The notes under the pieces were generated by a model. That model searched no databases, was not told the DNA's origin, and saw only the letters and a program-made list of their open reading frames with translations. Of a DNA stretch of 47,304 bases, positions 7,073-43,790 are shown piece by piece (the first letter of the stretch is position 1; each line of letters begins with the position of its first letter). The DNA is from a virus. The stretch covers positions 1 through 47,304 of IMG/VR virus record IMGVR_UViG_3300017917_001210; one strand, given 5' to 3'. The translations under genes and the position numbers were made by a program.

Positions 7073-7079
7073 TTAATAA

Positions 7080-23574: not shown

Positions 23575-23631
23575 GTAAGATGCCTACGGGGTCTTACCAG
23601 TCATATTTTGCTTAAAGGAGAAAATAAAATG
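23575..23631 (+). promoter_or_regulatory. Possible ROSE/fourU-like RNA thermometer in the Hsp20 leader
   Basis: Hairpin I: GTAAGA (23575-23580) pairs with TCTTAC (23592-23597), with an inner CC-TACG-GG that gives a stable UNCG tetraloop. Hairpin II: TATTTT (23604-23609) pairs with AAAATA (23621-23626), G23610 is bulged, and CTT pairs with GAG across an AAAG loop. Hairpin II contains the Shine-Dalgarno sequence AAGGAG (23615-23620). A bulged G opposite the ribosome site and a UUGCU element are ROSE features. This is manual folding only. Confidence 0.55.
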
Positions 23632-24069
23632 GCTACTATCTTAACTCTTGACCTACCTACCCTGCATCGTCGCTTTATTGGTTTTGACCAATTTTTTGAC
23701 GAACTTGAACGCACGTTCCAAGTGCCCAAGCAGGACAATTACCCACCACACAACGTTATTCGCCAAAGCGAAAATCAGTTCAGCATTGAGCTGGCTGTGG
23801 CAGGCTTTGACGAGGACGAACTAGACGTCAGTTTGAGCAATCGTGTGCTAACCATTAAAGGTGAGCGTAAACCACGAGCAGCAACTGAGTCATGGGAATA
23901 CTTGCATCGTGGCATCGCCAGTCGCGATTTTGAACGCACCTTTCCATTGAACGACAATGTGGAAGTACGTGCCGTGACTGTGCGCAATGGCATCATGACT
24001 GTGAATCTGGAACTACTGGTTCCGGAGGAACAAAAAGCCAAAAAGATTGCAATTACGTTTGCCAAGTAA
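23629..24069 (+). CDS. Small heat shock protein (Hsp20/IbpA-like, 146 aa)
   Basis: I chose the ATG at 23629 (MATILTLDLPTLHRRFIGFD), eight bases after AAGGAG. The N-terminus with FIGFDQFFDELER and the alpha-crystallin domain (NQFSIELAVAGFDEDELDV, LTIKGER, HRGIASRDFERTFPL) are close to the IbpA/HspH family of bacteria. The protein binds unfolding proteins without ATP. It stands alone between a strong promoter and a terminator, and its leader may be temperature-sensitive. Confidence 0.95.
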   Translation: MATILTLDLPTLHRRFIGFDQFFDELERTFQVPKQDNYPPHNVIRQSENQFSIELAVAGFDEDELDVSLSNRVLTIKGERKPRAATESWEYLHRGIASRDFERTFPLNDNVEVRAVTVRNGIMTVNLELLVPEEQKAKKIAITFAK

Positions 24070-24120: not shown

Positions 24121-24441
24121 ATGAGCACAGATACACCAACCAAGGTACAAAACAATTTAAAAATTGAACCCAAGCTAAACATTCCTGAGCCTCGCATGTT
24201 TAAGGTTATTTTTATCAATGATGAAATTACCACAATGGAGTTCATTATTGAAACATTGAAGAACGTGTTTGACTACGATGAAGAAGATGCAAATGAAATG
24301 ACCATGCGTATTCATCAAGAAGGCGCAGCCATCGTTGCAGTTTATCCATATGAACTAGCGGAACAAAAAGGCATTGAAAGCACAGTACTGGCCCGTAACA
24401 ACGGTTTTCCATTGCAAGTTAAACTAGAACCAGAAGGTTAA
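24121..24441 (+). CDS. clpS: Clp protease adaptor ClpS (106 aa)
   Basis: The core (MFKVIFINDEITTMEFIIETL, then ANEMTMRIHQEGAAIVAVYPYELAE, then ARNNGFPLQVKLE) carries the ND-x-x-TTMEFV-type signature and the late helix and strand of ClpS. ClpS delivers N-end-rule substrates to ClpA/ClpC and blocks other substrates. No clpA is present here, so the phage adaptor would act on the host ClpA-ClpP machine. GAGGAATT precedes the ATG. Confidence 0.93.
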   Translation: MSTDTPTKVQNNLKIEPKLNIPEPRMFKVIFINDEITTMEFIIETLKNVFDYDEEDANEMTMRIHQEGAAIVAVYPYELAEQKGIESTVLARNNGFPLQVKLEPEG

Positions 24442-25560: not shown

Positions 25561-25579
25561 TATTTCGTACCCAAACGGA

Positions 25580-25585
25580 TAAATA
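25580..25585 (+). promoter_or_regulatory. T4-late-like element and structured leader of the curli-type operon
   Basis: GGATAAATATTAATG at 25578-25592 is followed by an 84-base leader before the CsgF ATG. In the leader GTGGGT (25599-25604) can pair with ACCCAC (25636-25641), while the overlapping GGTGA (25602-25606) can pair with TCACC (25626-25630). The two pairings exclude each other. Confidence 0.5.
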
Positions 25586-25669
25586 TTAATGAGGACAAGT
25601 GGGTGAACCACTCTCATTGATAGCATCACCTACTGACCCACAAACGATAACAATAAAGGGCAGTCAACC

Positions 25670-26119
25670 ATGAAGTTTCTAAGAACAGCAATGGCCGCTG
25701 TTTTACTACCCACTACAGTGTGGGCCGCTCCACTGGCCGATTATTCATTTAAAAGTCCTGCATTCAACGGAGTTGGATACAGTAGTCACGTGCTGACTAT
25801 TGAGAACCAAGAACACACACGTAGAGAAACACTAAGAAAAGATTTACAGGCTGCAATAGACAAAGCAGCAGCAGAAGCCAAGTCCAGTAACTTGAACAAG
25901 TTCTTAAACAACTTGGAATCACGTATCTATGCTCAGATCAGTCAAAACCTAGCAACAGCAATGTTTGCTGATGGTGGCAGCAACACCGGGTCATTGAATT
26001 TTGAAGGTAATACCATATCCTGGACCAAGGATAGCAGTAACGTATATCTAACTGTTACAGACCTAGTGGGTAATGTAACACAAATAACAGTACCATTAGG
26101 GCAATTTCAATTCCAATGA
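25670..26119 (+). CDS. csgF: CsgF-like curli assembly protein (149 aa)
   Basis: A signal peptide (MKFLRTAMAAVLLPTTVWAA) is followed by LADYSFKSPAFNGVGY, which matches the CsgF start (F-x-F-x-NPxFGG) that inserts into the CsgG channel. The middle helix and the final NVYLTVTDLVGNVTQITVPLG also follow the CsgF order. CsgF caps the CsgG pore and helps nucleate the fibre on the cell surface. The stop overlaps the CsgG start (ATGA), so the two are coupled as partners. Confidence 0.85.
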   Translation: MKFLRTAMAAVLLPTTVWAAPLADYSFKSPAFNGVGYSSHVLTIENQEHTRRETLRKDLQAAIDKAAAEAKSSNLNKFLNNLESRIYAQISQNLATAMFADGGSNTGSLNFEGNTISWTKDSSNVYLTVTDLVGNVTQITVPLGQFQFQ

Positions 26120-27363
26120 CAAAACTACTAACAACAATTTTATTAATAGGGTTATTGTCGGGTTGTGCAGTTACCCAAAATGATCGCATGGGCAAAGCTC
26201 CCAAGCCAGTGAACATGCCTGTGATGATGCAGAAAGAATTTGATGCAATTCGTGGCCCAGCCCACGGACAGCCTATTACAGTAGCACTGTATGGATTCAC
26301 AGATAAAACAGGTCAGCGTAGACCACAACAGAACATTGCCAGCCTGAGCACAGCAGTTACTCAAGGATCAGAAACATTCTTGATCAAGGCACTACAAGAC
26401 GTAGGGCAGGGTCGTTGGTTCAAAGTTGTAGAGCGTGTGGGCATTGACGGGTTAACTCGTGAACGCCAGCTGATTAGACAGATGCGCGAAGCCTACGAAG
26501 GATCGAACGCTAAACCTTTGCCGCCAATGACATTTGCTGGAATAATACTCGAAGGCGGTATTGTTGGGTACGATAGCTCAGTTAAATCTGGAGGCATGGC
26601 AGCACGTTGGTTGGGTATTGGGCCACAGACACAGTACAGTGAAGATATTGTTACTGTGAGTATTCGTGCTATCAGTGTAAGCTCAGGCGAAGTGTTGGCA
26701 GCAGTCACAGTACAAAAGACCATTGTGAGTGCAGCAGACAGCGTAGCAGCAATGAAGTTTTTTGACATGGGCACCAAGGCTTTTGAATTTGAAACTGGTA
26801 TGACAGTCAATGAGCCGGGGACATTTGCAGTCAAGAGTACCATTGAAATGGCAGTATTAGAGTTGATTAAAGAAGGTGCAAAGAGAAATGTATGGGCGTT
26901 TGACGCTGCCACACCAGCAGCAAGTCCAGCAATTCCTCCTGCAAAAGAGCAAAAGCCAGAACCGGTTCCTGAGAAAAAAGCAGAACCAGCACCTGTGCCT
27001 GAAGTTAAAAAAGAAAATCCGCCGGCCAAAACAGAACCAGCAGCTAAAGCAGAACCAGCGGTAACGGTTCCTGTTCCTGAGGTTAAACTGGCAATTACCG
27101 AGCAATCAGCAAACCCGCCCGCAGTTGATAAAAAAGAAGTAGACAAACATTTACCAGTGGTATATGTCAAGGGCACAACCTATTTGTATATGAAAAAAGA
27201 TCTTCATAGCAAACGACTGGGCTGGTTATCTACAGGCGTTGAGCTGACTGTGGCGGAAATGGATAATCATTGGGCAACCGTTGTTGACTCCATGGGTAGG
27301 CACGGGTTCGTTAGGAAGGCAGTATTAGTGTCCGAAAAACCTATAATAAGAAAAGGGCATTAG
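26116..27363 (+). CDS. csgG: CsgG-like outer-membrane curli secretion channel with SH3-like tail (415 aa)
   Basis: A lipoprotein signal peptide ends in LLSGC with Cys17 as the lipidated residue. Residues 35-255 carry the CsgG domain (ITVALYGFTDKTGQ, QDVGQGRWFKVVER, GGIVGYDSSVKSGG, GPQTQYSEDIVTVSIRAI), the nonameric pore that exports curli subunits. Unlike the 277-aa E. coli protein, it continues with a Pro/Glu/Lys/Ala-rich linker (about 260-345) and a C-terminal SH3-like domain (about 347-410) with VYVKGTTYLYMKKD and GRHGFVRKAVL. The extra part may bind peptidoglycan. Confidence 0.92.
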   Translation: MTKLLTTILLIGLLSGCAVTQNDRMGKAPKPVNMPVMMQKEFDAIRGPAHGQPITVALYGFTDKTGQRRPQQNIASLSTAVTQGSETFLIKALQDVGQGRWFKVVERVGIDGLTRERQLIRQMREAYEGSNAKPLPPMTFAGIILEGGIVGYDSSVKSGGMAARWLGIGPQTQYSEDIVTVSIRAISVSSGEVLAAVTVQKTIVSAADSVAAMKFFDMGTKAFEFETGMTVNEPGTFAVKSTIEMAVLELIKEGAKRNVWAFDAATPAASPAIPPAKEQKPEPVPEKKAEPAPVPEVKKENPPAKTEPAAKAEPAVTVPVPEVKLAITEQSANPPAVDKKEVDKHLPVVYVKGTTYLYMKKDLHSKRLGWLSTGVELTVAEMDNHWATVVDSMGRHGFVRKAVLVSEKPIIRKGH

Positions 27364-27385
27364 CCGAAAGGAGCAGTAAAATAAA

Positions 27386-28162
27386 ATGAAAATAAAATTT
27401 CTAGCAGCAGTGTTAATGCTAGGGATTACTAATTATATTCAAGCAGGTGACAATAAAGTATATATCGACCAAGTTGGTGATCGTAGCACAATAGCAATAA
27501 CCCAGGATGGGTCTAGTAACTTAGTAAAAGGCGTGGGTACCGCACAGGATACCAATGCTAAAATTCACGGCGATGACGCCGCAGTAACAATAACGCAGAC
27601 AGGAGCAGCCAACCAGCTGGTACTGGGCGTCAATGGTGGTGCCTTGGGCTCTAACAACATAGTTTCCTACACAGTAACAGGTAACTTAGGAAATGCCACT
27701 ATTGACTGTAACAACGCTGATACCGGCAAGTGTAATGCTAACAACATTGGCATCACACAGGTTGGTAACAACTCTTTGGCTACAGTAACCGTTAATGGCG
27801 AAAACAACGTGGTGACTGGTACTACCACTGGTGGTAACAATAACCAGTTGTATTTCAATATCACAGGTGACGGCTTGCATCCAAGCATTGCTATCACAGG
27901 TGGTGGCAACAGCGGCAGTATCACCATGGCGCCAACAGCAGGTATCAATGCCACAGCCACTATGACCATTACTGGTTCTAGCAACAACGTGAGCATTAAC
28001 CAAACAGGCGGAGCCGTGCTTGGACATACTGCACAACTAGGAATCAGTGGCAGCGGTAACACCGTAACAGTTGTTCAGACAGGTACAGCAGGAGACAATT
28101 TGTTTAACTTGACCAGCTCTGGCAGCAGCAATTCTATCACTGTTAATCAAAACACGCAGTAA
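27386..28162 (+). CDS. Secreted curlin-repeat protein, amyloid subunit candidate (258 aa)
   Basis: A signal peptide (to about residue 20, IQA-GDN) is followed by several curlin-like units of the S/N-x-I/V-x-I-x-Q-x-G-x-x-N type, for example NKVYIDQVGDRSTIAITQDG, AAVTITQTGAANQ, NNIGITQVGNNS and NNVSINQTGG. These Gln/Asn ladders form the amyloid beta-rungs in CsgA and CsgB. The ribosome binding site is GAAAGGAG. By position after CsgG it is the likely CsgA- or CsgB-type substrate of the channel. Confidence 0.85.
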   Translation: MKIKFLAAVLMLGITNYIQAGDNKVYIDQVGDRSTIAITQDGSSNLVKGVGTAQDTNAKIHGDDAAVTITQTGAANQLVLGVNGGALGSNNIVSYTVTGNLGNATIDCNNADTGKCNANNIGITQVGNNSLATVTVNGENNVVTGTTTGGNNNQLYFNITGDGLHPSIAITGGGNSGSITMAPTAGINATATMTITGSSNNVSINQTGGAVLGHTAQLGISGSGNTVTVVQTGTAGDNLFNLTSSGSSNSITVNQNTQ

Positions 28163-28174
28163 CCGGGAGAGGAA

Positions 28175-29284
28175 GTGAAACTATGCCGCATCGTCATCTT
28201 AGAACTATCGCTGATATTATTCGCGAGCAGCACACACGCTGGAATAGGAAAGATTACCGATCAAGTAAACACCCCAGCTTCGATACAACGACAGAAAACG
28301 ATGCTGAATGGGACGAAAGGTACAGCCCTGGAGATGCAAGATGCAGTGCGGACTGCCCAGGGAAAAGTTCAGATAACTTTTGATGACGAGACCAAGGTAC
28401 AGATCACTGAAAACAGTAAGTTAGTTATAGATGATTTTGTTTACGATCCTAACAGCAAGAAAGGCGGAAAACTTGCTGTTAATATCGCACTAGGCACAGT
28501 ACGTTATGCCAGTGGACAAATTGCAAAAAACAATCCTCAAGCAGTAGCAGTTAACACTCCTTCAGCCACAATTGGTGTGCGTGGCACAGACTTTACAGCA
28601 GCAGTAGACGAACTAGGACGCAGTACCATTGTGTTGCTGCCCAGCTGTCCAGTCGGTTGGCGCGATATTAAAACAGATTGTAAAACTGGTGAGATCAGTG
28701 TAACCTCAGATGAGGGCACTGTTATCATGAATCAACCCTTTCAAGCAACCACAGTGACCACAAGAGAAACCAGGCCCATGAAACCGGTTATTCTCAAACT
28801 TGATGAGGATCAAATCAACAATCTGTTGATCCTTACTCCAATCAAGGGAGAACCAACCAGAGAAGAACGCATGGACACTCGCAAGGGTTTTTTAGATGTG
28901 GATTTTTTAAAATTTGAAGGACTGGGCAATGCTCTAGAAGCGCAGGATCCTTTCAAATACAGCAAGTTGGATGTTAACTTTTTGGAACGAGAATTCTTGG
29001 TTAACATTCTGGACATGGTAGACGCCATGATCAAAGCACAAATGGATTACCTGGAAAATGCCAATGCCAAGCTACTACCAGACTACGTGGCACTCACAGG
29101 TGTAAGAGCAGTTATTGAAGATCCAATTGTACAGCTATGTCGCGAAGATAACAGCAGCAATGTGGCCTGTGTGCAGGTATTACAGACCAGAGATGTAACC
29201 ATTACGATCATACAAGAACGCATGGAGTTTAAGAATCGTGTGAACGCAGGTGGTATAAGCAATATAACTATTACACAAAACTAA
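28175..29284 (+). CDS. Secreted FecR-domain protein (369 aa)
   Basis: The start is GTG after GGGAGAGG. A signal peptide ends near HAGIG. Residues 30-195 are a FecR-type beta-helix domain (TALEMQDAVRTAQGKVQITF, SKLVIDDFVYDP, VNTPSATIGVRGTDFTAAV). The C-terminal half is charged and helical and the last residues (GGISNITITQN) resemble one curlin rung. There is no N-terminal sigma-regulator region, so this is a secreted structural or adaptor use of FecR, perhaps at the fibre base. Eleven bases separate it from the curlin-repeat gene. Confidence 0.8.
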   Translation: MKLCRIVILELSLILFASSTHAGIGKITDQVNTPASIQRQKTMLNGTKGTALEMQDAVRTAQGKVQITFDDETKVQITENSKLVIDDFVYDPNSKKGGKLAVNIALGTVRYASGQIAKNNPQAVAVNTPSATIGVRGTDFTAAVDELGRSTIVLLPSCPVGWRDIKTDCKTGEISVTSDEGTVIMNQPFQATTVTTRETRPMKPVILKLDEDQINNLLILTPIKGEPTREERMDTRKGFLDVDFLKFEGLGNALEAQDPFKYSKLDVNFLEREFLVNILDMVDAMIKAQMDYLENANAKLLPDYVALTGVRAVIEDPIVQLCREDNSSNVACVQVLQTRDVTITIIQERMEFKNRVNAGGISNITITQN

Positions 29285-29285
29285 T

Positions 29286-29873
29286 ATGAGACTTCCTACA
29301 ATTATTTTCTTCTCGTTGTTTTTACTTGCATGCGGATTGGCATTTGCAGACAATTCAATCACAGTGAATCAAGTGGGCAGTTCTAACACTATTAACATTG
29401 AGCAAGTGGGAACCAAACACAAGGTCACCGTGAACATGGGACAAACAACAGACGTGGACAACACTACGTTGACCATATTACAGCAGGGCACAGGAGCAAA
29501 AACTGCCACAGTTTCTATTCCGTCAGGAATTAACAACAGCGTTAATATACAGCAGGATGGTGCTGGAAATCACTTGGCCAGCATACAGAATTTAAACGGC
29601 TCTGGCAACGGTATAACCGTGAATCAATCAGGTGCAGGCAAACATGAGTTTAATGTGGTAGTAGGTGCAGGCACTACAAACAACGGAAATACTATTACCG
29701 CTACACAAGCAGGCGGTACAGGATCAGACAAGTGGTTTAATGTTTGGTTAAATGGAGCAACAGGAGCAACTGTCAATGTGGTACAGGACAATGCAAACAC
29801 CGCAGATCAAGCCAGCATGAACGTACAGTGCATGCCCGGAACCTGTGGAACATTCGGATACATTAAACACTAG
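29286..29873 (+). CDS. Second curlin-repeat secreted protein (195 aa)
   Basis: A signal peptide ends at LAFADN. The mature part has curlin-type rungs (NSITVNQVGSSNTINIEQVG, NSVNIQQDGAGNHLASIQN, NGITVNQSGAGK, NTITATQAGG). The C-terminus has a CMPGTC pair and ends FGYIKH, which could be a disulphide-closed cap. With the first curlin-repeat protein it makes a two-subunit set like CsgA/CsgB, but I cannot tell nucleator from major subunit. It follows the FecR gene by one base. Confidence 0.85.
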   Translation: MRLPTIIFFSLFLLACGLAFADNSITVNQVGSSNTINIEQVGTKHKVTVNMGQTTDVDNTTLTILQQGTGAKTATVSIPSGINNSVNIQQDGAGNHLASIQNLNGSGNGITVNQSGAGKHEFNVVVGAGTTNNGNTITATQAGGTGSDKWFNVWLNGATGATVNVVQDNANTADQASMNVQCMPGTCGTFGYIKH

Positions 29874-29874
29874 G

Positions 29875-29880
29875 TAAATA
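29875..29880 (+). promoter_or_regulatory. Possible TAAATA element before the small secreted protein
   Basis: TAGGTAAATATTTTTATG places the element only five bases before the ATG, so a transcript from it would be leaderless. No Shine-Dalgarno sequence is present. Confidence 0.3.
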
Positions 29881-29885
29881 TTTTT

Positions 29886-30215
29886 ATGAAAAAACTAGCC
29901 ATGGCTGCTATCCTACTAGCACTGGTATCACAGGGTTATGCTCGAGACAAAACAATACAAGTTACCTGTGGCACCAAGGAAGAATGGGTAATGACAGCCA
30001 ACAAATATGGCGAAGAATTGGTTATTGCGGCTCCCGCACCAAACAGAGAAACCATAGTGAGTCTATGGGTAAACTTTGCCACAGGGTCATCCAGCTGGGT
30101 AACTCATGTGGTAGCAACAGACGAATGGTGTATGACAGGCATAGGGGAGAAATTGCTAATACCAAAAGACAGTCCGTTGAATAATTTAACAGGAACAAGA
30201 GTAATATACAAATAA
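29886..30215 (+). CDS. Small secreted protein of the curli-type locus (109 aa)
   Basis: A signal peptide (MKKLAMAAILLALVSQGYA) is followed by a 90-residue beta-rich mature domain with two cysteines (VTCGTKEEW and EWCMTG) that could form a disulphide. The size and single beta-sandwich look recall periplasmic curli accessory proteins such as CsgC or CsgE, but no diagnostic motif supports either. It is the last gene before the operon terminator. Confidence 0.6.
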   Translation: MKKLAMAAILLALVSQGYARDKTIQVTCGTKEEWVMTANKYGEELVIAAPAPNRETIVSLWVNFATGSSSWVTHVVATDEWCMTGIGEKLLIPKDSPLNNLTGTRVIYK

Positions 30216-30237
30216 CCTCGCTAGTCGAGGTTTTTTT
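30214..30237 (+). terminator. Rho-independent terminator of the curli-type operon
   Basis: A 7-bp stem AACCTCG / CGAGGTT with loop CTAGT is followed by a run of T. It overlaps the last codon of the small secreted protein. Confidence 0.9.
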
Positions 30238-30257
30238 ACGACTAGAAGGAGAACGTC

Positions 30258-30341
30258 ATGAGTTGGTTCAATCATAGACCTACAAGAAATCCACCAGCCC
30301 CACCACCAACACACCCGCCATCTAGATGTAAGCACAGATAA
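30258..30341 (+). CDS. Proline-rich microprotein (27 aa)
   Basis: A strong AGAAGGAGAACGTC precedes the ATG. The 27 codons read MSWFNHRP, then a Pro/Thr/His-rich stretch, then SRCKHR. Phage genomes often carry tiny proteins that begin MSWF and continue with prolines, so I think it is real, but it is too short to be sure. It lies alone between a terminator and the next leader. Confidence 0.5.
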   Translation: MSWFNHRPTRNPPAPPPTHPPSRCKHR

Positions 30342-30360
30342 TTTTTTTGGTAGGTAGTCG

Positions 30361-30366
30361 TAAATA
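30361..30366 (+). promoter_or_regulatory. T4-late-like element upstream of the autotransporter
   Basis: AGTCGTAAATATCTAAG lies 69 bases before the ATG at 30436. The A-rich leader that follows ends in a strong site (AGAAGGAGCTAAAAATC). Confidence 0.5.
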
Positions 30367-30435
30367 TCTAAGTAGAACCCTAGGCAGTTAAAAAAATAAA
30401 AATAAAGGGACTACACTTAGAAGGAGCTAAAAATC

Positions 30436-32799
30436 ATGCGTAAACTATTGACTAAGGTCATTCTGGCCTTAGGTATCGCCTTTGCCCCTGTGGCTCAGGC
30501 AGACCTAGTTGACGGACATTTTAGTACTAATCAAATTTTTGATGTACAGTATTATTGGTCCGGCACAACTCTAAACGCAAGTAACTTTATCGCTCCGTAC
30601 GATATGAATTTTCAACATCCTACGGTAGCAGCTGGAGACTACTTTGCGTTTTTCCCAAGTACCACAAATCCCGGAACATATGGCATGGGGCTGTATAATT
30701 CCTCAGGAACGCTATTACAAGTCGTACACGACACCGGTACACTACAAGCCATTGGCCCAGATGCTATTTTTTATGTAGGATCAGGATTCTTTGGTACAGT
30801 GATTACTACCAGTGCAGGATACGCATATGGTGCCAGCGGTACATTTACCAATATGGATACCAGTGTGTCTGGAACTGATGCCAGTTCATACACCTGGGCT
30901 AGTACCACTCCACTGACAGCAGGTCAAACTGCCAGCAGCGGTGGCGGTAGCGGCGGTGGAACAACAACACCTACACCAACCTATACAGCAATTACCAGTG
31001 CAAATGTTGTGCAAGTTACTCCGACCAGTAACAACAGCCCAGCAGGTGAAGGTGCTACCAATGTGATTGATGGCAACACAGGCACAAAGTATTTGAACTT
31101 TGACCGTGCAAGTGCAGGTTTCACTATTAAACTGGACCAAGGTCGAGTAATTGAGAAATTCACAATTACCACAGCTAACGACTACTCTCCACGTGACCCA
31201 AGCAAGTTCAGCTTGTTTGGATCAAACGATGGACGTACTTGGACCACAATCGCTAACAATCAAAGTATAACATTAAGTGATAATCGTTTTACCACATCCA
31301 GCGACATTGTTGTGGCCAATACCAATGCTTATGTGTATTACTTTATTACTTTTGATTCCACCAAAGCCTTGGATCAATATCCAGTGTTGGCATCCTGTAT
31401 GGCAGCATACGGTGGTGGTTGGCTAGGTACCGAAAACTGTAACAGTGTTCAAGTATCAGAAGTCAAGTACTACTATGACAGTGCAAACAACACTACCAGT
31501 GTTGATGCTGGTAACGGTACTGTGGCTAACCCAGGAACAGCTGGTGCTACATCCAGTTTGAACACTGGCCCAACTGTGGTTGGTACTGCTCCAGGTGCAA
31601 ACATTGTATCCACAACAGAAACACCAGGCACAATGGTAACAAATACCAACAGCACACGCGGCACAACCACATCGGTTACCACTGTAAACGATGCACGTGG
31701 CGCACAGGAAACCAAACGTTTGGAAGTGGTTAGAACCACAACAGTGACTTCTACTACTCCAATCACCACAGTGGTTACACAGACAACACCAGTTACTGTT
31801 ACTACCGTGACCACACCAACTACTGTGACAACCTACAGTGATGGTACTACCACTACTACAAATGGTACTCCAGTAACCACAGTCGCAATCAGAACTGATG
31901 TGATCACAACAACCACAACTACCAATGAAGTTGTTAGTTCTTCCAGCGATCAGAGCTACTTTACCAAGATTGATCAGTACAGTAACCTGGCAGCAGTTAA
32001 CCAAAGACTTAACGCAGCATTGGACAGTGATGTTCTAGATCGTCACAAAGGATCTAGCGAAACTCTTGTAACTCGCAGCAATGCAGCGGGCAATGAGGAA
32101 AAAGGTTGGTGGTATCTAATTGCTGAAGGACAGCGTTCTAACACAGTAGACACATACTCCACTAAAACCAATCGTTATGGATTTGGACATGAGAAAAAGG
32201 TACGTGGTAACTGGATAGTTGGTTTACAATACAACCATCTAAGCAGCACCATGGCTGGTCTGGATGCAGGCGGCGGTTTGGTCAAAGACCACGTGGGTAT
32301 CTACAGTCTGTACAATCACAATGGTTGGTTGTTGAAAACTGATTTGGCATACAGCCAGAACAGCTTTACCAACTATCATTCATTGCCAGAACTGAACTAC
32401 AGCAACTCAGGCAAAACCGCAGGTAATGATATCTGGTTGAGCAACAGACTATACACTCCAGAGTTCAAAGGGTTCCGTCCTTTTGCTGGTGTACGTGTAG
32501 AGAACAACAAGCGCAACGAACTAACAGAAACTGGTTCTGCTATCACTGCAATGAACTATGCTGCTGTTAACCAAACTCGCACAGTAGGCGAAGTTGGTTT
32601 GCGTTATGATGTTGCAATCAGAGAGCGAGTGAACTTTATCGCAGAAGCCAGTCAAACTGACACAAGCCTTACAACTGTTAAGGTCGGTGTAAACTTTGCA
32701 CCAAAAGAACGTGTTATCGGTGGCGTAAGCGTGGTTCAACAAAGCCAAAACGGCGTACAAAATACTCTAGGTCAAGTATCTTTACGTTGGATATTCTAA
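30436..32799 (+). CDS. Autotransporter with discoidin domain and outer-membrane barrel (787 aa)
   Basis: A signal peptide ends at VAQADL. An N-terminal beta domain with a PEP-CTERM-like or surface-protein look (30-160) is followed by a Gly/Ser linker, then a discoidin (F5/8 type C) fold at about 185-305 (GEGATNVIDGNTGTKYLNF, PSKFSLFGSNDGRTWTTI). Residues 350-510 are a Thr/Val low-complexity stalk. The last 250 residues are an autotransporter-type barrel (GFGHEKKVRGNWIVGLQYNH, ending LGQVSLRWIF with a terminal Phe). The protein would display a sugar-binding passenger on the host surface. Confidence 0.85.
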   Translation: MRKLLTKVILALGIAFAPVAQADLVDGHFSTNQIFDVQYYWSGTTLNASNFIAPYDMNFQHPTVAAGDYFAFFPSTTNPGTYGMGLYNSSGTLLQVVHDTGTLQAIGPDAIFYVGSGFFGTVITTSAGYAYGASGTFTNMDTSVSGTDASSYTWASTTPLTAGQTASSGGGSGGGTTTPTPTYTAITSANVVQVTPTSNNSPAGEGATNVIDGNTGTKYLNFDRASAGFTIKLDQGRVIEKFTITTANDYSPRDPSKFSLFGSNDGRTWTTIANNQSITLSDNRFTTSSDIVVANTNAYVYYFITFDSTKALDQYPVLASCMAAYGGGWLGTENCNSVQVSEVKYYYDSANNTTSVDAGNGTVANPGTAGATSSLNTGPTVVGTAPGANIVSTTETPGTMVTNTNSTRGTTTSVTTVNDARGAQETKRLEVVRTTTVTSTTPITTVVTQTTPVTVTTVTTPTTVTTYSDGTTTTTNGTPVTTVAIRTDVITTTTTTNEVVSSSSDQSYFTKIDQYSNLAAVNQRLNAALDSDVLDRHKGSSETLVTRSNAAGNEEKGWWYLIAEGQRSNTVDTYSTKTNRYGFGHEKKVRGNWIVGLQYNHLSSTMAGLDAGGGLVKDHVGIYSLYNHNGWLLKTDLAYSQNSFTNYHSLPELNYSNSGKTAGNDIWLSNRLYTPEFKGFRPFAGVRVENNKRNELTETGSAITAMNYAAVNQTRTVGEVGLRYDVAIRERVNFIAEASQTDTSLTTVKVGVNFAPKERVIGGVSVVQQSQNGVQNTLGQVSLRWIF

Positions 32800-32814
32800 G
32801 CAGCAATGCTCAGC

Positions 32815-32841
32815 AAAAAGCTCGCTTCGGCGAGCTTTTTT
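32815..32841 (+). terminator. Strong rho-independent terminator
   Basis: An 11-bp stem AAAAAGCTCGC / GCGAGCTTTTT with a TTCG tetraloop and a T run follows the autotransporter gene. Confidence 0.95.
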
Positions 32842-32846
32842 GTTGG

Positions 32847-32852
32847 TAAATA
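32847..32852 (+). promoter_or_regulatory. T4-late-like promoter element TAAATA
   Basis: TTGGTAAATAGAATACTATG lies directly after the terminator and seven bases before the cyclase ATG. The leader would be minimal and no Shine-Dalgarno sequence is present. Confidence 0.5.
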
Positions 32853-32859
32853 GAATACT

Positions 32860-34902
32860 ATGAAAAAACTTCTATTAAACCCATGGACTGCACTGATTAC
32901 CTTGGCATTGGTACTAGGCATTCGTATATCCGATACCGCATTTGTAGAGTCAGTTAGACTGCGCTACTTTGACACACTGATCACAAGCAAGGCGCCAACA
33001 GAAAATAACATATACACGGTGAACATTGATGAAGCCACATTGGACAAATATGGCCAATGGCCTTTGCCAAGAGGCCAGTATGCTGAACTAATTGACGAAC
33101 TCTTCAAGAGAAACGCTGGACTGGTAGTGTGGACCATACTCATGCCAGAGCTGGATCGCAACGGTCAGGACAATGACCTATCGTATGCTTTGGCCACAAA
33201 CCCTGTTATTCTCAGCAGTGTGCCCAGTAACACATCCAAGAATCCCCCAAGACAGGTGGGTGTCAGTATTATGCGTCCTGAATTTACAGACCGCATTGTA
33301 CAGTATCCAGGCATGATATCTAATATAGAGGCCCTGAGCAGTCAAGCCGCAGGTGTGGGTATTGCCGGAACATTACCTGAGGTTGATGGTGTTAATCGTA
33401 GATTGCCTCTGGTGGTCAGCGTGAATGATGTGCTGTATCCAAGCGTGTCACTGGAAACACTACGAGTGGCAGCGGGTGATCCTAGTTTTCAAATCAAGCT
33501 GAACGAGAATGGTGTAGAGAAAATGCGCATTCCGCAGTTTGGTCCTATCGCCACAGACAACCTAGGGCGCATCTGGATTGACTGGAGCCAGCGCAGCCAG
33601 TCTGTGAGCGCAGCAAAGCTGCCAAAAGATTTTAACAAGGCCATTGTGATTGTGGGTACCAGTGCCGCAGGATTGGGTAACCCAGTGCCCACCAGCATTG
33701 GAGCAGTATGGCCTCAGGATGTGCATGCCAGCGTGATTGGCACTATGGTCAATGGAGTTACCATACAGCGACCGGACTACGCAGATGGGCTGGAAATACT
33801 TGCAATACTTGCTGCTGGTGTTATACTGCTAGCGTTAACCAGGTGGGTGTATGTTGGTCTAGCATCTGTGGTAGTTCTTGTTGGTGGATTCGCATACGGC
33901 AGCTACTATGCTTTTGCTACAGATCTTTGGCTGTTTGATGTTACCGCACCAATTGCAGGAGTTATCCTGGTTGCACTACACGCATACGGTGTGAAGTTCG
34001 TAAGCGAGTTCTTGCAGAAACAACAGATCAAGAAACAGTTTGGCAGCTATGTGAGCCCTGTTATCGTTGAGAGATTACAAAAAGATCCTAGTTTAATTAA
34101 ACTGGGCGGCGAAGAAAAGATGCTTACAGCAGTGATGACAGACATGCGCAACTTCACAGGACTAGGTGAAAAGTACGGCGCAGACGTTGAAGGCTTTACC
34201 GCTATCATGAACGCATACATGACAGCTATCAGCAAACCTGTGTTTGCCAACGATGGTTGTTTGATCAAGTTCATTGGTGATGCCAGCTTGCACATTCATG
34301 GTGCACCGGTAGACGACAATCGCCATGCTTACCGTGCTGCGCAAACAGCCATTGAAATGGTACAGGCCGTGGACGAGTTTAACAAGCACCTGCACAGTAT
34401 TGGCAAGCCACCAGTGGGTATGGGTGCTGGTGTTAACACAGGAAAGATTCTTGTAGGTAACATTGGATCAGAAGGCAAGATGGGATACGATGTACTAGGC
34501 GATCCTGTGAGCGTGGCCAGTCGACTGGAAGGTCAGACCAAGGGCTATGGAGTATTGTTGATCATTGGACCTGACACCTATGCAGAAGTTAAAAATGATT
34601 TCCATTGCTTTGAACTAGATTGCATTGCAGTCAAAGGCAAAGACATTGGATTGAATATCTATACACCACTGTTTAATCCTGCCAACTTCAATCAACATGA
34701 TGCCGACAGACATGCAAGCATGCTGGCTGCATACAGAGCTCAGGACTGGAGAGCGGCAACTGCAATTACCAAGAGTTTGATTGGCTGCTTTGGTGGCGAA
34801 TTGGACCACTACTATGAACTGTGGCTAGAGCGTATTGCAGCAACAAAGAAAATGAAATTACCAACAGACTGGGACGGAATCTACCGTGCTACTAGCAAAT
34901 AA
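32860..34902 (+). CDS. CHASE2-domain class III adenylate/guanylate cyclase (680 aa)
   Basis: An N-terminal helix, a periplasmic CHASE2 sensor (about 25-315; VNIDEATLDKYGQWPLPRGQY) and three membrane helices (about 315-380) precede a class III cyclase domain (about 405-600). Both metal aspartates are present, Asp428 (TDMRNFT) and Asp474 (KFIGDAS). The Lys in IKFIGD and Asp548 region favour ATP, but Ser551 replaces the usual transition-state Asn while Arg555 is kept (PVSVASRLE). The enzyme probably makes cAMP in response to an envelope signal. A C-terminal helical tail follows. Confidence 0.93.
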   Translation: MKKLLLNPWTALITLALVLGIRISDTAFVESVRLRYFDTLITSKAPTENNIYTVNIDEATLDKYGQWPLPRGQYAELIDELFKRNAGLVVWTILMPELDRNGQDNDLSYALATNPVILSSVPSNTSKNPPRQVGVSIMRPEFTDRIVQYPGMISNIEALSSQAAGVGIAGTLPEVDGVNRRLPLVVSVNDVLYPSVSLETLRVAAGDPSFQIKLNENGVEKMRIPQFGPIATDNLGRIWIDWSQRSQSVSAAKLPKDFNKAIVIVGTSAAGLGNPVPTSIGAVWPQDVHASVIGTMVNGVTIQRPDYADGLEILAILAAGVILLALTRWVYVGLASVVVLVGGFAYGSYYAFATDLWLFDVTAPIAGVILVALHAYGVKFVSEFLQKQQIKKQFGSYVSPVIVERLQKDPSLIKLGGEEKMLTAVMTDMRNFTGLGEKYGADVEGFTAIMNAYMTAISKPVFANDGCLIKFIGDASLHIHGAPVDDNRHAYRAAQTAIEMVQAVDEFNKHLHSIGKPPVGMGAGVNTGKILVGNIGSEGKMGYDVLGDPVSVASRLEGQTKGYGVLLIIGPDTYAEVKNDFHCFELDCIAVKGKDIGLNIYTPLFNPANFNQHDADRHASMLAAYRAQDWRAATAITKSLIGCFGGELDHYYELWLERIAATKKMKLPTDWDGIYRATSK

Positions 34903-34914
34903 TTGGATAGACTT

Positions 34915-35772
34915 ATGCGTAAGTACATACCTATACTGCTACTTCTTTCCTTATTATTTCATGGGGCAAGTGTCGCAAAAACACCAGCCAGTACCAACGA
35001 CCTAACAGCCAAAAGCTGGTTGGTAACTGACAGCGAAGGAAATCTCATTGCAGGTGAGAATGTGCATGCGGTACGCAGTATTGCCAGCGTGACCAAGTTG
35101 ATGACTGTGCTCACAATACTGGACAGGCATGCAGAACTGGATCGTCCACTGGACCTAACCATGCGTAACTATAATAAGAAAACACGCAAGGCCAAGCGCA
35201 GTGCATATGATAACCTCACTCGTAGACAGTTGATTGACCTAGCCATGATTCGCAGCGACAACAATGCGGCCAGGTTGTTGTGCGAAACATATCCTGAAGG
35301 ATACAAAAAGTGCATTGATGACATGAATGCCAAGGCGCACAGTTTAGGTATGTTGTACAGTGTGTTCTACGATCCTACAGGACTAGATGACAGAAACAAC
35401 AGCACAGCCGCAGACCTGGTCAAGTTGGCCAGAAGTGCAGTGAACTATCCTGAAGTGGTAAATGCCAGTCAGCAGAGTCAGATCAAGGTAAAGATCAAAC
35501 GTCACTGGTTTGCAGGACACAACACAAATCCACTGATCGGCAACACGCATGACATCAAGGTCAGTAAGACTGGGTGGACCACACGAGCTGGTGGGTGTAT
35601 TTTGATGCTAATGGACACAGACAAAGGACGCAGGATCGTTGTGGTATTGGGCAGTAAGAGTATCAAGACTCGAATACCTGAAGCAGAGTTTATATCTCGG
35701 ATTGATGAAACAGCGGTGGTTGAAAAAGAGCCTAATACACTGTTTGGTATCAGGCTCTTTGGCAGCGATTAA
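34915..35772 (+). CDS. D-Ala-D-Ala endopeptidase, PBP7-like (S11 family, 285 aa)
   Basis: I chose the ATG at 34915 (MRKYIPILLLL); a TTG at 34903 would add four residues. A signal peptide ends near SVAKT. The three penicillin-binding motifs are present: SVTK at 58-61, SDN in MIRSDNNAA, and KTG in VSKTGWT. The short length without the C-terminal anchor domain matches PBP7 (PbpG), which cleaves peptidoglycan cross-links in the periplasm. It begins 12 bases after the cyclase, so the two may share one mRNA. Confidence 0.92.
   Translation: MRKYIPILLLLSLLFHGASVAKTPASTNDLTAKSWLVTDSEGNLIAGENVHAVRSIASVTKLMTVLTILDRHAELDRPLDLTMRNYNKKTRKAKRSAYDNLTRRQLIDLAMIRSDNNAARLLCETYPEGYKKCIDDMNAKAHSLGMLYSVFYDPTGLDDRNNSTAADLVKLARSAVNYPEVVNASQQSQIKVKIKRHWFAGHNTNPLIGNTHDIKVSKTGWTTRAGGCILMLMDTDKGRRIVVVLGSKSIKTRIPEAEFISRIDETAVVEKEPNTLFGIRLFGSD
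35725..35760 (-). terminator. Terminator for the minus-strand membrane genes, inside the PBP7-like gene
   Basis: On the minus strand AAAGAGCCTGATAC pairs with GTATTAGGCTCTTT (one mismatch) and is followed by TTC after a T tract. It lies within the last codons of the convergent PBP7-like gene, and may stop both transcripts. Confidence 0.7.
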
Positions 35773-36131
35773 GACTTCTTTTTTTCTGACTCAATGTCGC
35801 GACCAGCGACTTTATCAGCTTCGTCCATGGCCTCATGAAACTTTTTGTTAGCTTGCGCTTCAACAAGAGTTGTTTCCATAACACGATCACTTTCGATCAT
35901 TTTGCCACGAATGGTTAGCACAGTGTTAACCTTTTGATTCAAACGAATCAAATCGTTGTCCAACATGCGAATACGATCAATCAATGCAATAAGCACAGTG
36001 TTTGCTTCGCTGATAACAGGTTTAACTTCCTTGGTGCTCCACTCCCAAACGTACTTGATAATGTAGCCCATGCCCACTGCCATAACAATGGGGAATCCAT
36101 ACTTGTTGACTAATTCTGCAATATCGCCCAT
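35769..36131 (-). CDS. Phage membrane protein, YvrJ/holin-like N-terminus (120 aa)
   Basis: The ATG at 36131 follows AAGGATATAAC. The N-terminus MGDIAELVNKYGFPIVMAVGMGYIIKYV contains one membrane helix with the GFP turn typical of small YvrJ-like phage proteins. The rest is a charged coiled coil (LDNDLIRLNQKVNTVL) and a Lys-rich end. It is a paralogue of the 93-aa protein two genes upstream. A holin-related or membrane-adaptor role is possible. Confidence 0.65.
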   Translation of the reverse strand: MGDIAELVNKYGFPIVMAVGMGYIIKYVWEWSTKEVKPVISEANTVLIALIDRIRMLDNDLIRLNQKVNTVLTIRGKMIESDRVMETTLVEAQANKKFHEAMDEADKVAGRDIESEKKKS

Positions 36132-36132
36132 G

Positions 36133-36285
36133 TTATATCCTTATTAGAAAGCCAATCACAAAGCCAAAAACAAAACCTAGTCCAATAGCTTTGTACATGT
36201 CTCGATCGTGCCACAGTGGTTGTTTGCTCAGATAGGCACGCATTTGTGGAGACAAACTGTCATGCCATTTTTCCCATTTATTCAT
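36133..36285 (-). CDS. Small membrane protein (50 aa)
   Basis: The ATG at 36285 shares a base with the TGA of the upstream gene. The sequence MNKWEKWHDSLSPQMRAYL, then WHDRDMYKAIGLGFVFGFVIGFLI, has a Trp-rich amphipathic start and one membrane helix with Gly-x3-Gly spacing. I believe small proteins with the WHDRD motif recur in T4-like phages. It lies between two paralogous membrane proteins and probably acts with them. Confidence 0.7.
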   Translation of the reverse strand: MNKWEKWHDSLSPQMRAYLSKQPLWHDRDMYKAIGLGFVFGFVIGFLIRI

Positions 36286-36566
36286 CAGTCTCTCCTTGCA
36301 TCGTTTTTGCCGTCTGCGCGAGCAATACGGTCAACGTCCGGACGCAGGCCCAATGCGTTTGATACAATAGTATCAATGCGCACCACGTCGTGATTCATGG
36401 TTTTTACACGGTTGTCTAAGGCAGTGATAATTCCTGCCATTCCCTTGATGCTTCCTAGCACTCCTTGTAATAGTAGTTTGATAGTTAGATACACAAAATA
36501 CCCACCGGCAAACGCTACTGCTACAGGAAACCCTAGTTCACCAATGATTTTAAAAACTTCATTCAT
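36285..36566 (-). CDS. Phage membrane protein, YvrJ/holin-like (93 aa)
   Basis: I chose the ATG at 36566 because AAGGAGCT lies four bases upstream; the longer frame starts inside the leader. MNEVFKIIGELGFPVAVAFAGGYFVYLTIKLLL contains one membrane helix after the GFP turn, followed by a short coiled coil (ALDNRVKTMNHDVVRIDTIV) that aligns by eye with the 120-aa paralogue. It is first in a three-gene minus-strand membrane operon. Confidence 0.65.
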   Translation of the reverse strand: MNEVFKIIGELGFPVAVAFAGGYFVYLTIKLLLQGVLGSIKGMAGIITALDNRVKTMNHDVVRIDTIVSNALGLRPDVDRIARADGKNDARRD

Positions 36567-36597: not shown

Positions 36598-36603
36598 TAT
36601 TTA
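36598..36603 (-). promoter_or_regulatory. T4-late-like element on the minus strand
   Basis: The minus strand reads CCATAAATACTTG, 31 bases before the ATG at 36566. It faces a plus-strand TAAATA at 36633, making a divergent late pair. Confidence 0.5.
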
Positions 36604-39747: not shown

Positions 39748-40104
39748 TTACTTCTTTGGTTTGGCAGGCTTCTTGGCCGGTGCTGGTTTTTTAGCTAGTG
39801 CCGGCTTTTTCACGGTCTTGGCTGTTTTGGTAGCTGGCTTTTTGGCTGCTACTTTTTTAGCTGCTGTTTTGGCTTTTGTAGCAGTTTTCTTAACCGCTGC
39901 AACTGCATCAGCTGCATTCACCTTGCCGTCTTTGTTTACGTCTGCAACTTTGGCAACTGTTTGTGTTAACACTGGAGCAACTGCACTCAGGTCTTCTTTA
40001 GTAACTTTGCCATCTTTGTTGATGTCCAAAGGTTTAGACGTATTGTTAACGTAGAGCAAGTAACCCACGGCAACTAATACTACTAGGCCAATGATAATTT
40101 CCAT
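39748..40104 (-). CDS. Membrane-anchored dockerin-like/EF-hand protein with histone H1-like tail (118 aa)
   Basis: An N-terminal membrane helix (MEIIIGLVVLVAVGYLLYV) is followed by two calcium-loop motifs, DINKDGKVTKED and DVNKDGKVNAAD, spaced as in a dockerin pair. The last 50 residues are a Lys/Ala/Pro-rich repeat tail (AAKKVAAKKPATK) like histone H1 or bacterial Hc1. The tail could bind DNA or an anionic cell-wall polymer. Function unknown. The stop abuts the UVDE stop, and the gene has its own TAAATA element. Confidence 0.8.
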   Translation of the reverse strand: MEIIIGLVVLVAVGYLLYVNNTSKPLDINKDGKVTKEDLSAVAPVLTQTVAKVADVNKDGKVNAADAVAAVKKTATKAKTAAKKVAAKKPATKTAKTVKKPALAKKPAPAKKPAKPKK

Positions 40105-41414: not shown

Positions 41415-41570
41415 ATGAGCAAAACTCTTGAGCTGGCTGCAACCGTGGCTATTTTTCATCGCCAGCTGAGCACTGATCGTGCTGTGCGTTTTGTTGTACA
41501 GGAAACTGGCGTGACAGCGGACGCCGCTGAACGTGCCTTGCGTTCTGTAATGATTTCTTACAAGAAGTGA
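41415..41570 (+). CDS. Small helical protein (51 aa)
   Basis: AAGGAG lies eight bases before the ATG. The sequence MSKTLELAATVAIFHRQL, then RAVRFVVQETGVTADAAERAL, has a helix-turn-helix-like rhythm, with ETGVTADAAERAL as a possible recognition segment. It could be a minimal DNA-binding protein, but this is tentative. The stop overlaps the GTG of the lipoprotein gene. Confidence 0.6.
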   Translation: MSKTLELAATVAIFHRQLSTDRAVRFVVQETGVTADAAERALRSVMISYKK

Positions 41571-41866
41571 AACAGATTCTAGCCATGGCTGTGTGTGCTG
41601 GGTTGGTAGGTTGTGCAAGCAACACACCTCCAATTCCAGCAGGCAGTACATCCAACTCTCAGAGCATGGTGCCTGTGGCAGTGGATTGTAGATATGCCAC
41701 TCGCATGTCAGCTGAACTAGAATACATCATTGCTAATCCCGCAGTTCCGAGTGCCATCTGGGATAGAACCCTTCAATGGGTAGGTGGTATTGAAAACACT
41801 ACACAAAGGCGCTCCAGTGCCAAAACTGTGCTATGGTCCATAAGAACAAACTGCCCCGGCTTCTAA
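41567..41866 (+). CDS. Small lipoprotein (99 aa)
   Basis: The start is GTG, overlapping the stop of the previous gene. A signal peptide ends with the lipobox LVGC, Cys16 being the lipidated residue. The mature 84 residues are helical with two further cysteines (VDCRYA and TNCPGF) that may bond. It could be an outer-membrane partner such as a spanin subunit, but it lacks the proline-rich character of Rz1. The 3' end overlaps the next exported protein by 34 bases. Confidence 0.75.
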   Translation: MKQILAMAVCAGLVGCASNTPPIPAGSTSNSQSMVPVAVDCRYATRMSAELEYIIANPAVPSAIWDRTLQWVGGIENTTQRRSSAKTVLWSIRTNCPGF

Positions 41867-42420
41867 TAGCCCTGACCCTGGTGTCTGGTTCTGCTATAGC
41901 AGACGCAGACTGCTACCTGCGCAGTGCATCTGTGAGTCGTGCCGCTGCTCGTATTGAGCGCATGGCGGACTTGCAGTATGCTCTACTGCCAGCCGAAGGC
42001 AATCAAATGCGCTGCCGTGTGACCTTCCGGGCGTTGATTGACAACCAATGGCACACCGCAGAAGGTGAAAACGTAGGTCCTGCCAAACAGGATTCTGCCC
42101 AGATTTGCAGCCAGGCACTGAACATTGCTCGCAGTACCACACTGGTACGTGTGTCTGGCGCCAGCACTCAAATGGCACAGGAAATGGTGTGTACTGATCA
42201 GCCCATTCCCAAGGTGCGTGAGTCTGTAGCAGCCGGCGAAGCTGTTCGCGAAAGTGAACTGCAACCGCACCCAATTTATAGACGTCCGTTTTCTTATCGT
42301 GGCAGTATGTGCAAATGGTTTGTGGAAAGTCGTCCAGATTCTGGTCGTGTGGACATGAACCAAGGCGTGATTTGCAAAGCACCAAACGATAATGCCTGGC
42401 GTGTGGTTGACAAATGGTAA
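41833..42420 (+). CDS. Secreted periplasmic protein, Cys-containing (195 aa)
   Basis: The ATG at 41833 lies inside the lipoprotein gene, a 34-base overlap. A signal peptide (MVHKNKLPRLLIALTLVSGS) ends at AIADAD. The mature part has six cysteines (for example DADCYLRS, MRCRVTF, AQICSQ, MVCTD, SMCKWF, GVICKAP), suggesting disulphide bonds in the periplasm. I recognise no domain. Overlap with the lipoprotein gene suggests that the two proteins interact. Confidence 0.7.
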   Translation: MVHKNKLPRLLIALTLVSGSAIADADCYLRSASVSRAAARIERMADLQYALLPAEGNQMRCRVTFRALIDNQWHTAEGENVGPAKQDSAQICSQALNIARSTTLVRVSGASTQMAQEMVCTDQPIPKVRESVAAGEAVRESELQPHPIYRRPFSYRGSMCKWFVESRPDSGRVDMNQGVICKAPNDNAWRVVDKW

Positions 42421-42435
42421 AAAATCATTTACAAT
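42407..42435 (+). promoter_or_regulatory. Sigma70-type promoter of the LPP20-type gene
   Basis: TTGACA inside the end of the preceding gene, 17 bases, TACAAT at 42430-42435. Confidence 0.7.
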
Positions 42436-42477
42436 ACGCATGTATTCTTTTATTAACTAATTCCGAAAGGAACTGAA

Positions 42478-43304: not shown

Positions 43305-43790
43305 ATGGCTAGACCAAATCCTATCAGACGCATCATGGAATGTGCGTTACCCAGCATTACGTATCAAAGACGTAGGCTGTTTAGAGTGGGGCCAGAAGAA
43401 GTCAAATATGCGTATAAAATAATCAACAAATATGTGTTTGATAACAAACTGCATCGCCCGCCCATTGAAATAGGTATTACCCGAGACTACTGGGGAATAT
43501 GTGAGGGCCTGGATTATGAAACAGGTCACAATACCTACTCTAAACTAAAGATCAGCGACAAGTACTTTTGCGCCCAGTGGTTCATGAATGTGCTAGCACA
43601 CGAAATGGCCCATCAATATCAATGGGACATTGTTACTCCTGCTCGCGAACAAGAAGGCATGCAGCCCGTACTGAGTCATGGTCCAACCTTCTTTATGTGG
43701 CGTGAAGAGTTTGAGTACTACGGACTACATCTAAAAACCGCCCACGGACAGCGCCGCTGGTTTTTGCATCAAGATTTCAATAAGTGTTGA
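43305..43790 (+). CDS. SprT-like zinc metalloprotease (161 aa)
   Basis: I chose the ATG at 43305, seven bases after GGAGGG; the GTG frame start at 43290 lies within the hairpin. The active site is HEMAH at 99-103 with a downstream SHGPTFFMW that can supply the third ligand, as in SprT/Spartan domains. Spartan-type enzymes cleave DNA-protein cross-links. The N-terminal domain (YKIINKYVFDNKLHRPPIEIG) also fits. No zinc ribbon is seen. The substrate is unknown. Confidence 0.85.
   Translation: MARPNPIRRIMECALPSITYQRRRLFRVGPEEVKYAYKIINKYVFDNKLHRPPIEIGITRDYWGICEGLDYETGHNTYSKLKISDKYFCAQWFMNVLAHEMAHQYQWDIVTPAREQEGMQPVLSHGPTFFMWREEFEYYGLHLKTAHGQRRWFLHQDFNKC

Follow-up and report, generated by a model that had tools for sequence, protein, structure and literature searches.

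The virus record IMGVR_UViG_3300017917_001210, analysed over its whole 47,304 nucleotides and referred to here as the window, is a 47.3 kb sequence encoding a tail spike and other virion proteins, ribonucleotide reductase and Hsp20, as well as ClpX and ClpS (the latter two named by eye). Nine envelope protein genes, from CsgF through to an S11/PBP7 peptidase, lie on its plus strand between 25.67 and 35.77 kb in three transcription units, and are followed on the minus strand by genes for two small membrane proteins. The locus is a variant of a phage curli module that is already known, with a swapped adhesin display, dedicated small membrane partners and, possibly, a sensor that mimics curlin. 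The features of the locus are as follows.

25580..25585, plus strand: TAAATA element resembling a late promoter, unit 1, 90 bp upstream of csgF
25670..26119, plus strand: CsgF, secreted curli chaperone (Pfam PF10614, 3e-13; phrog_35372, 4e-61)
26116..27363, plus strand: CsgG, outer-membrane curli pore lipoprotein (Pfam PF03783, 6e-45; PDB CsgG 3x2r, 8.6e-45)
27386..28162, plus strand: curlin-repeat protein 1, 258 aa (Pfam PF07012, 1.6e-5; seven copies of a curlin-like strand pattern)
28175..29284, plus strand: periplasmic protein with a FecR domain and C-terminal strands resembling curlin (Pfam PF04773, 1.4e-11; fold; tail statistics)
29286..29873, plus strand: curlin-repeat protein 2, short headless form, 195 aa (Pfam PF07012, 1e-5)
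29886..30215, plus strand: 109 aa secreted protein (signal peptide recognised on inspection; homologs adjoin the autotransporter in loci L006 and L007)
30214..30232, plus strand: terminator between units 1 and 2 (terminator scan)
30361..30366, plus strand: TAAATA element, unit 2, 75 bp upstream of the autotransporter
30436..32799, plus strand: autotransporter, 787 aa (F5/8C Pfam, 2.5e-8; 12-strand barrel by fold)
32816..32840 (approximate), plus strand: terminator separating units 2 and 3 (identified by eye; absent from the scan's list)
32847..32852, plus strand: TAAATA element, unit 3, 13 bp upstream of the cyclase
32860..34902, plus strand: CHASE2 membrane adenylate cyclase, class III (Pfam PF05226, 3e-37; PF00211, 9e-16)
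34915..35772, plus strand: PBP7-type DD-endopeptidase/S11 peptidase, ATG start (Pfam PF00768, 2e-37; PDB 6azi, 5e-30)
35769..36131, minus strand: 120 aa membrane protein with a coiled coil, paralogous to the 93 aa protein (phrog_18771, 1.9e-28)
36285..36566, minus strand: small membrane coiled-coil protein, 93 aa (phrog_18771, 1.1e-28; linkage to the curli module; 56% identity in Melnitz)
36598..36603, minus strand: TAAATA element preceding the two small membrane genes, conserved in relatives

Genes of the first unit are separated by between -4 and 22 bp, while gaps of 220 bp and 60 bp, each with a terminator, precede the autotransporter and the cyclase respectively; the PBP7-type gene has an alternative TTG start at 34903. 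All genes named in the original prediction, made from the sequence alone, are present, with Pfam matches for CsgF, CsgG, the curlins, FecR, F5/8C, CHASE2, the cyclase and Peptidase_S11. Inspection by eye also bore out the prediction's statement that eight of the nine proteins carry a signal peptide or lipobox, the ninth being the cyclase. The gene content it gave for the block therefore stands, but the functional unit overruns the proposed right edge to take in the minus strand pair at 35769-36566. No Pfam match to CsgE or CsgD was found among the ten block proteins scanned, and neither Rfam, at gathering thresholds, nor a tRNA scan gave a match in the window.

CsgF, CsgG, curlin, FecR and cyclase genes are ordered on one strand, the gene content that defines phage curli (a type VIII secretion system, T8SS), and the arrangement csgF-csgG-curlin-FecR-curlin-cyclase is that of both Melnitz and HTVC008M. 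At the protein level, CsgG was found in seven of 50,697 phage records: four Melnitz isolates, two HTVC008M records and a short Salmonella phage record that lacks annotation. From scans of IMG/VR, relatives were taken as the best 80 of the 173 found for CsgG, 515 for the cyclase, 572 for the small membrane proteins and 565 for PBP7. The 80 CsgG loci formed 57 clusters, 32 of which had enough flanking sequence. Conservation of the gene neighbourhood had been put forward as a check on the original prediction, and in these 32 non-redundant loci the core is retained, for the most part with its genes in the order seen in HTVC008M and Melnitz: curlin and FecR are present in all, CsgF in 31 and the cyclase in 30. 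A curlin or adhesin gene occupies the slot after FecR in 30, and one or both small membrane genes are found in 26. Numerous viral contigs of up to about 370 kb share the module, the largest with module genes being of 357 kb (L084) and 372 kb (L266).

The CsgG phylogeny places the window in a supported 22-row viral clade (99/97), separate from the marine references, with L011 the closest row at 78% identity. Three bacterial CsgG sequences form their own clade, and long branches leave the deep order unsettled. The window's CsgG has approximately 150 additional C-terminal residues, with a weak SH3 match, and CsgF has no meaningful sequence match in the PDB. In most viral relatives the curli site is preceded by Hsp20 (23608-24069 in the window) and ClpS (24121-24441; found in 29 of the 32 loci), which mark a conserved insertion site.

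The phage FecR combines a signal peptide with the FecR/PupR signalling fold (Z 15.7 to the PupR signalling domain); the signal peptide stands in place of the family's N-terminal cytoplasmic anti-sigma domain, which is absent. Its C-terminus ends in a curlin-like strand, [N/T]-x-hydrophobic-x-hydrophobic-x-Gln. This strand is present in 86 of 96 distinct FecR proteins and around 0.5% of random 20-mers, and all 336 tails taken from CsgG, the cyclase, PBP7 and CsgF lack it. Across 59 aligned FecR proteins, including those of HTVC008M and Melnitz, Gln368 is the sole invariant column after residue 192. Against a curlin profile the tail scores 19.1 (20.9 for an overlapping segment), compared with at most 14.6 for 16 control segments. 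Similarly, in bacterial genome records the strand is present in six of seven FecR proteins from curli loci and five of 79 others (from a scan giving 79 loci of 388 for bacterial FecR; Fisher p 6.5e-6, ignoring kinship). Four of the loci counted among these seven, L171-L174, come from bacterial bins but look like phage contigs; L174, with FecR, curlin, cyclase and the small pair, begins after csgG, such that CsgG is strictly on record for six of the seven. The curlin-like motif is thus near-absent from FecR proteins without curli, and the tail may bind curlin or the pore. FecR is paired with a related cyclase in bacterial loci both with and without curli, and the available part of one report describes FecR beside a CHASE2 sensor, there with a histidine kinase, in a Burkholderia biofilm operon (PMC5192318).

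The slot after FecR varies in content. The window's second subunit is a short curlin with no head; a head is carried by the autotransporter, which comprises a signal peptide, an N-terminal domain, an F5/8C (CBM32-like) domain, a Thr-rich stretch and a predicted barrel of 12 C-terminal strands (residues 557-786). The protein superposes on NalP with a Z of 31.1 (1.9 A over 259 residues); it has no match to Pfam PF03797, while two other slot proteins do. In fold, its F5/8C domain is similar to the galactose-binding CBM32 type (Z 14.8 to 4lks), and the head is predicted to be an adhesin of sugar-binding type. In many relatives the second subunit is itself large, in some cases with a recognised sugar-binding-type head, either PA14 or F5/8C. 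In HTVC008M, for instance, the curlin repeats of this subunit come after a PA14 domain, and the L029 protein is similar. The 584 aa protein of L015 matches residues 1-407 of the window's autotransporter, spanning the N-terminal and F5/8C domains, over its residues 1-384 (53%, 6e-130), and then continues into curlin-like strands. L005 has the same head as the window (60%) on a different beta-barrel, and L095 matches the window's autotransporter from end to end (68%). Since the window's type of head is found on curlin strands in L015 and on different barrels in L005 and the window, it appears to be an exchangeable binding domain that can be shown on amyloid or on a barrel.

Among 86 proteins of the slot region, Pfam identified Curlin_rpt in 20, F5/8C in seven, PA14 in six, glycosyltransferases in five and autotransporter domains in two. 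Over 48 clusters, 29 slots held long proteins whose final 190 residues include curlin-like strands (one of these proteins, that of L001, has no clear head), 11 held short curlins, four a head and barrel, and four neither. These classes are based on regular expressions, with three slots lacking an open reading frame of 140 aa excluded and L005, one of the head and barrel type, added by hand; the script's own output was 18/11/3/16, the 16 'other' being regrouped by hand.

The two metal-binding Asp residues, the adenine-type Lys/Asp and the transition-state Arg, roles that we presume from class III cyclases in general, are each retained in 100 of 100 cyclase relatives. At the transition-state Asn position, 79 have Ser, as in the window, and 21 Asn, the residue kept in HTVC008M and in the bacterial cyclases read. 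The SxxK, SxN and KTG motifs of PBP7 are intact in 36 of 36 proteins, and a DD-endopeptidase (6azi) is the best PDB match; relatives were found using an alignment as query, a single-sequence scan having returned none.

The two small membrane proteins are paralogs. Their genes follow PBP7 in the window; in HTVC008M and Melnitz they precede csgF and share its strand. A scan with a profile of one of the two gave 77 new loci among the best 80 of 572, and 45 of these came with at least 16 kb of sequence; a curli module gene was present in all 45, and the cyclase in 44. Likewise, all six records with this gene in the phage collection also have CsgG. Two curli-free sister sequences, L006 and the 355 kb contig 3300017917_002374, share the window's flanks (Hsp20, ClpS, an exonuclease-like gene, the small secreted gene, PBP7 and tail-linked genes) and lack curli, the cyclase and the small membrane pair. 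Because the pair co-occurs with curli genes and is absent from these sisters, it appears to belong to the module. Going by position, it might correspond to the 'histidine kinase' before csgF in podophages, as given in the accessible portion of PMC9599517; Pfam finds no kinase domain in the window's two proteins. In the curli-free sister L327, an unrelated 258 aa membrane-type protein (7030-7806) is encoded between the small secreted gene and PBP7.

The hexamer TAAATA, which we take to be the core of the T4 late promoter consensus, is associated with each unit. Of its 23 plus strand copies in the window, 21 are no more than 120 bp upstream of a plus strand start, regions making up 12.7% of the window; only four copies are on the minus strand. 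Besides the copies heading the three units, one precedes the small secreted gene by 11 bp. The association extends to relatives, the motif being present upstream of csgF in 82 of 99 (23.4 expected from mononucleotide shuffling), of the cyclase in 56 of 97 (20.2 expected), of the small membrane gene in 68 of 85 (16.7 expected) and of a tail-linked gene, so named through position only, in 15 of 17. It is found upstream of PBP7 in two of 35, and upstream of the operon-internal csgG in none of 96. The division into three units, each preceded by TAAATA, thus agrees with what had been predicted, two textbook terminators separating them, as does the view that the block is native to the phage, given that it recurs in related viral contigs with the same late-type element as structural genes. 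Unit 3 has no good closing terminator. Across the window, the terminator scan was near chance (21 found against 15.2 +/- 4.2) and a sigma-70 promoter scan at chance level (28 against 28.5). The module's elements resemble late promoters, and its expression would probably be late in infection. Superinfection exclusion, by comparison, usually acts early.

With somewhat more confidence than doubt, we interpret the locus as a late-expressed surface display module of a large tailed phage, which exports an amyloid and an adhesin, senses this through FecR and the cyclase, and makes the cell or its debris sticky. It would be built on a curli operon of alphaproteobacterial type, with CsgG and CsgF predicted to form the outer-membrane pore and the two curlin-repeat proteins the subunits of a secreted amyloid fibre. 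Late in infection, the cell would export this amyloid together with the CBM32-like adhesin. FecR may contact curlin or the pore via its curlin-like C-terminus and signal to the CHASE2 cyclase, such that the state of assembly would be reported as cyclic AMP, with the two small membrane proteins acting as putative inner-membrane partners in either sensing or secretion. The PBP7-type peptidase might trim the wall, admitting envelope proteins or easing lysis. The original idea of a phage that would remodel and sense its host's surface ahead of lysis agrees with this arrangement of parts. The likely benefit would be the retention of progeny near new hosts by a sticky cell or debris, a role others have proposed as 'sibling capture'.

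A number of observations weigh against this reading. With an hhalign probability of 4-13%, the match of the FecR tail to curlin is, in absolute terms, a weak one, and the window's FecR has no Pfam Curlin_rpt match at E 0.1. AlphaFold predicts, with high confidence, six strands over residues 310-368, which places the tail in a small beta-domain that may be an ordinary one. Replacement of the transition-state Asn by Ser makes the activity of the cyclase uncertain. Neither CsgE nor a dedicated transcription regulator was found in the block. In the available part of PMC9004378, Melnitz cultures are said to have shown no clumping, and our literature searches found no experiment showing fibres from any phage. 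Furthermore, the autotransporter and PBP7 are optional parts at best, and these and the small secreted gene are separable from curli. Autotransporter scans gave seven loci, of which L004 and L007 end within the gene; among the other five, curli is present only in L005. PBP7 frequently occurs without curli, the cyclase being found in 17 of the 42 PBP7 loci that are 12 kb or longer, and follows the cyclase in only eight of the 32 CsgG loci, ruling it out as an obligatory component. The single indivisible block originally envisaged is consequently not upheld, sister phages carrying the small secreted gene, autotransporter and PBP7 in the absence of curli.

A more elaborate version of the surface display reading, which we regard as tentative and on the whole doubtful, is that of a self-monitoring amyloid organelle. 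The FecR strand would mimic curlin and dock in the growing fibre or the CsgG-CsgF pore, and the cyclase would thereby turn amyloid export into a cyclic-nucleotide signal in the dying cell, with the small inner-membrane pair dedicated to the system. Swappable lectin heads, carried by fibre subunits or by an autotransporter barrel, would direct the sticky cell or debris to the next host or to particles.

It is improbable that CsgG and CsgF are instead a repurposed gated pore, or pinholin, that aids lysis with the small pair and peptidase as partners, fibres being secondary or absent. Such a pore was proposed for Melnitz, according to the portion of PMC9004378 available, and would suit the late-type promoters. 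The constriction of CsgG is unlike that of E. coli, with Leu in 82 of the 87 proteins (of 107) in which the position equivalent to Phe56, as we presume the E. coli residue to be numbered, is readable. The small pair also has weak matches to the holin family phrog_4898 (9e-4 for the 120 aa protein and 0.068 for its 93 aa paralog) and to YvrJ (0.028), making for a weak link to holins. However, conserved curlin subunits and adhesin-type heads would be needless for a bare pore, the pore is absent from the same site in sister phages, and a pore confined to the outer membrane would leave the inner membrane polarised.

We likewise give little credence to the absence of any joint function, with the locus a hotspot at which envelope genes were separately gained next to a curli module. 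The separability of PBP7 and the autotransporter and the varied genes between FecR and the cyclase are consistent with this, as is the block's tetranucleotide distance (0.1545), the highest of the segments tried (others 0.087-0.148). Yet CsgF, CsgG, curlin, FecR, the cyclase and the small pair travel together, and one type of head is found on both curlin and autotransporter. The composition check proposed with the original prediction otherwise revealed no break, GC content being 0.4505 in the block and 0.4395-0.4592 in segments of equal size; this flat profile, and a gene order recurring in many contigs, rule out a foreign insertion or assembly chimera. Least probable is receptor masking or superinfection exclusion through a coat that hides or changes the receptors of the infected cell, for, despite the surface location of the products, the glycosyltransferases and other genes that also occupy the slot between FecR and the cyclase, and a suggestion to this effect for pelagiphages in the consulted portion of PMC9599517, late-type promoters would act too late for exclusion.

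The curli operon was described in pelagiphages and Melnitz between 2020 and 2022, and, in the parts of these papers available, its transcripts are noted in ocean metatranscriptomes and sibling capture, a gated lysis pore, superinfection defence and uptake are proposed as roles (PMC7029224, PMC9004378, PMC9599517). As the operon is already published, and annotated in HTVC008M and Melnitz, the curli-FecR-cyclase core is not new, and for this core the description as an undescribed system is not supported. The same excerpts report curlin repeats in myophages (PMC9599517) and state that Melnitz lacks csgA/B (PMC9004378); the Melnitz record MZ577097.1 nevertheless annotates two curlin-repeat genes, at 52015-52734 and 53793-54809. 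The available portion of PMC9599517 yielded nothing on PA14, lectin, autotransporter or carboxypeptidase. Judging from result lists, literature searches returned no paper on phage PA14-curlin proteins, on a phage autotransporter with curli as an auxiliary metabolic gene, on curli in freshwater jumbo phages, or on phage curlin with FecR and CHASE2. The adhesin, the interchangeable anchors and several matching features look new. Further additions of this analysis are the spread of the module over viral contigs of up to about 370 kb, the FecR tail motif, the tie of the small membrane pair to the module, and the late-type elements before csgF, the cyclase and that pair.

The purpose of phage curli has been an open question since 2020, and the parts described here make it testable: second subunits bearing heads, a FecR tail in which a curlin-type Gln is the last conserved residue, a small membrane pair that this analysis found only together with the module, late-type promoters, and sister phages that share the flanks and are naturally free of curli. 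If the reading of FecR is true, it suggests a general way for both cells and phages to sense amyloid export.

Elsewhere in the window, a ClpP-like gene (43770-44430) is split, the catalytic part (44065-44430; Pfam CLP_protease, 2.6e-50) lying in a different frame from the N-terminal part, and is therefore frameshifted or misassembled. A second, small envelope cluster at 41567-43245 encodes a lipoprotein-like protein of 99 aa, a secreted protein of 195 aa and an LPP20-type lipoprotein (9.7e-5). On the minus strand at 39748-40104 is a gene for a small protein with an N-terminal hydrophobic stretch, a dockerin/EF-hand pair (6.6e-11) and a Lys/Ala/Pro-rich tail.

Among known systems, the curli of pelagimyophages, pelagipodophages and Melnitz (HTVC008M, MZ577097) are alike in gene order and in possessing homologs of both small membrane proteins, which there adjoin csgF. 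Relative to HTVC008M and Melnitz, the window adds the small secreted gene, the F5/8C autotransporter, PBP7 and the C-terminal extension of CsgG, has its small pair downstream on the minus strand, and belongs to a set of viral contigs reaching about 370 kb; its cyclase has Ser where that of HTVC008M retains Asn. Alphaproteobacterial csg operons, exemplified by those of Caulobacteraceae (L175, L176) and Hyphomonas (L177), share csgF-csgG-curlin-FecR-cyclase with the window, but no small membrane pair was found in these three loci, their cyclases keep the Asn, their CsgG proteins form the separate clade, and the Hyphomonas FecR is without the Gln tail. The csgBAC-csgDEFG system of Escherichia coli has the CsgG and CsgF families and curlin repeats in common with the window, whose block differs in having no CsgD or CsgE match, in the residues of the pore constriction, and in the addition of FecR and the cyclase. 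The autotransporter shares a 12-strand C-terminal barrel with helix and a C-terminal Phe with the type Va proteins NalP, EstA and EspP, although identity is low (10-17%), the passenger is short with a discoidin/CBM32 head, and the gene is that of a phage. Finally, while the signalling domain fold of FecR is that of the FecR/PupR regulators, the window's protein is periplasmic, lacks the anti-sigma part, and has instead a curlin-like tail and a cyclase as its partner.

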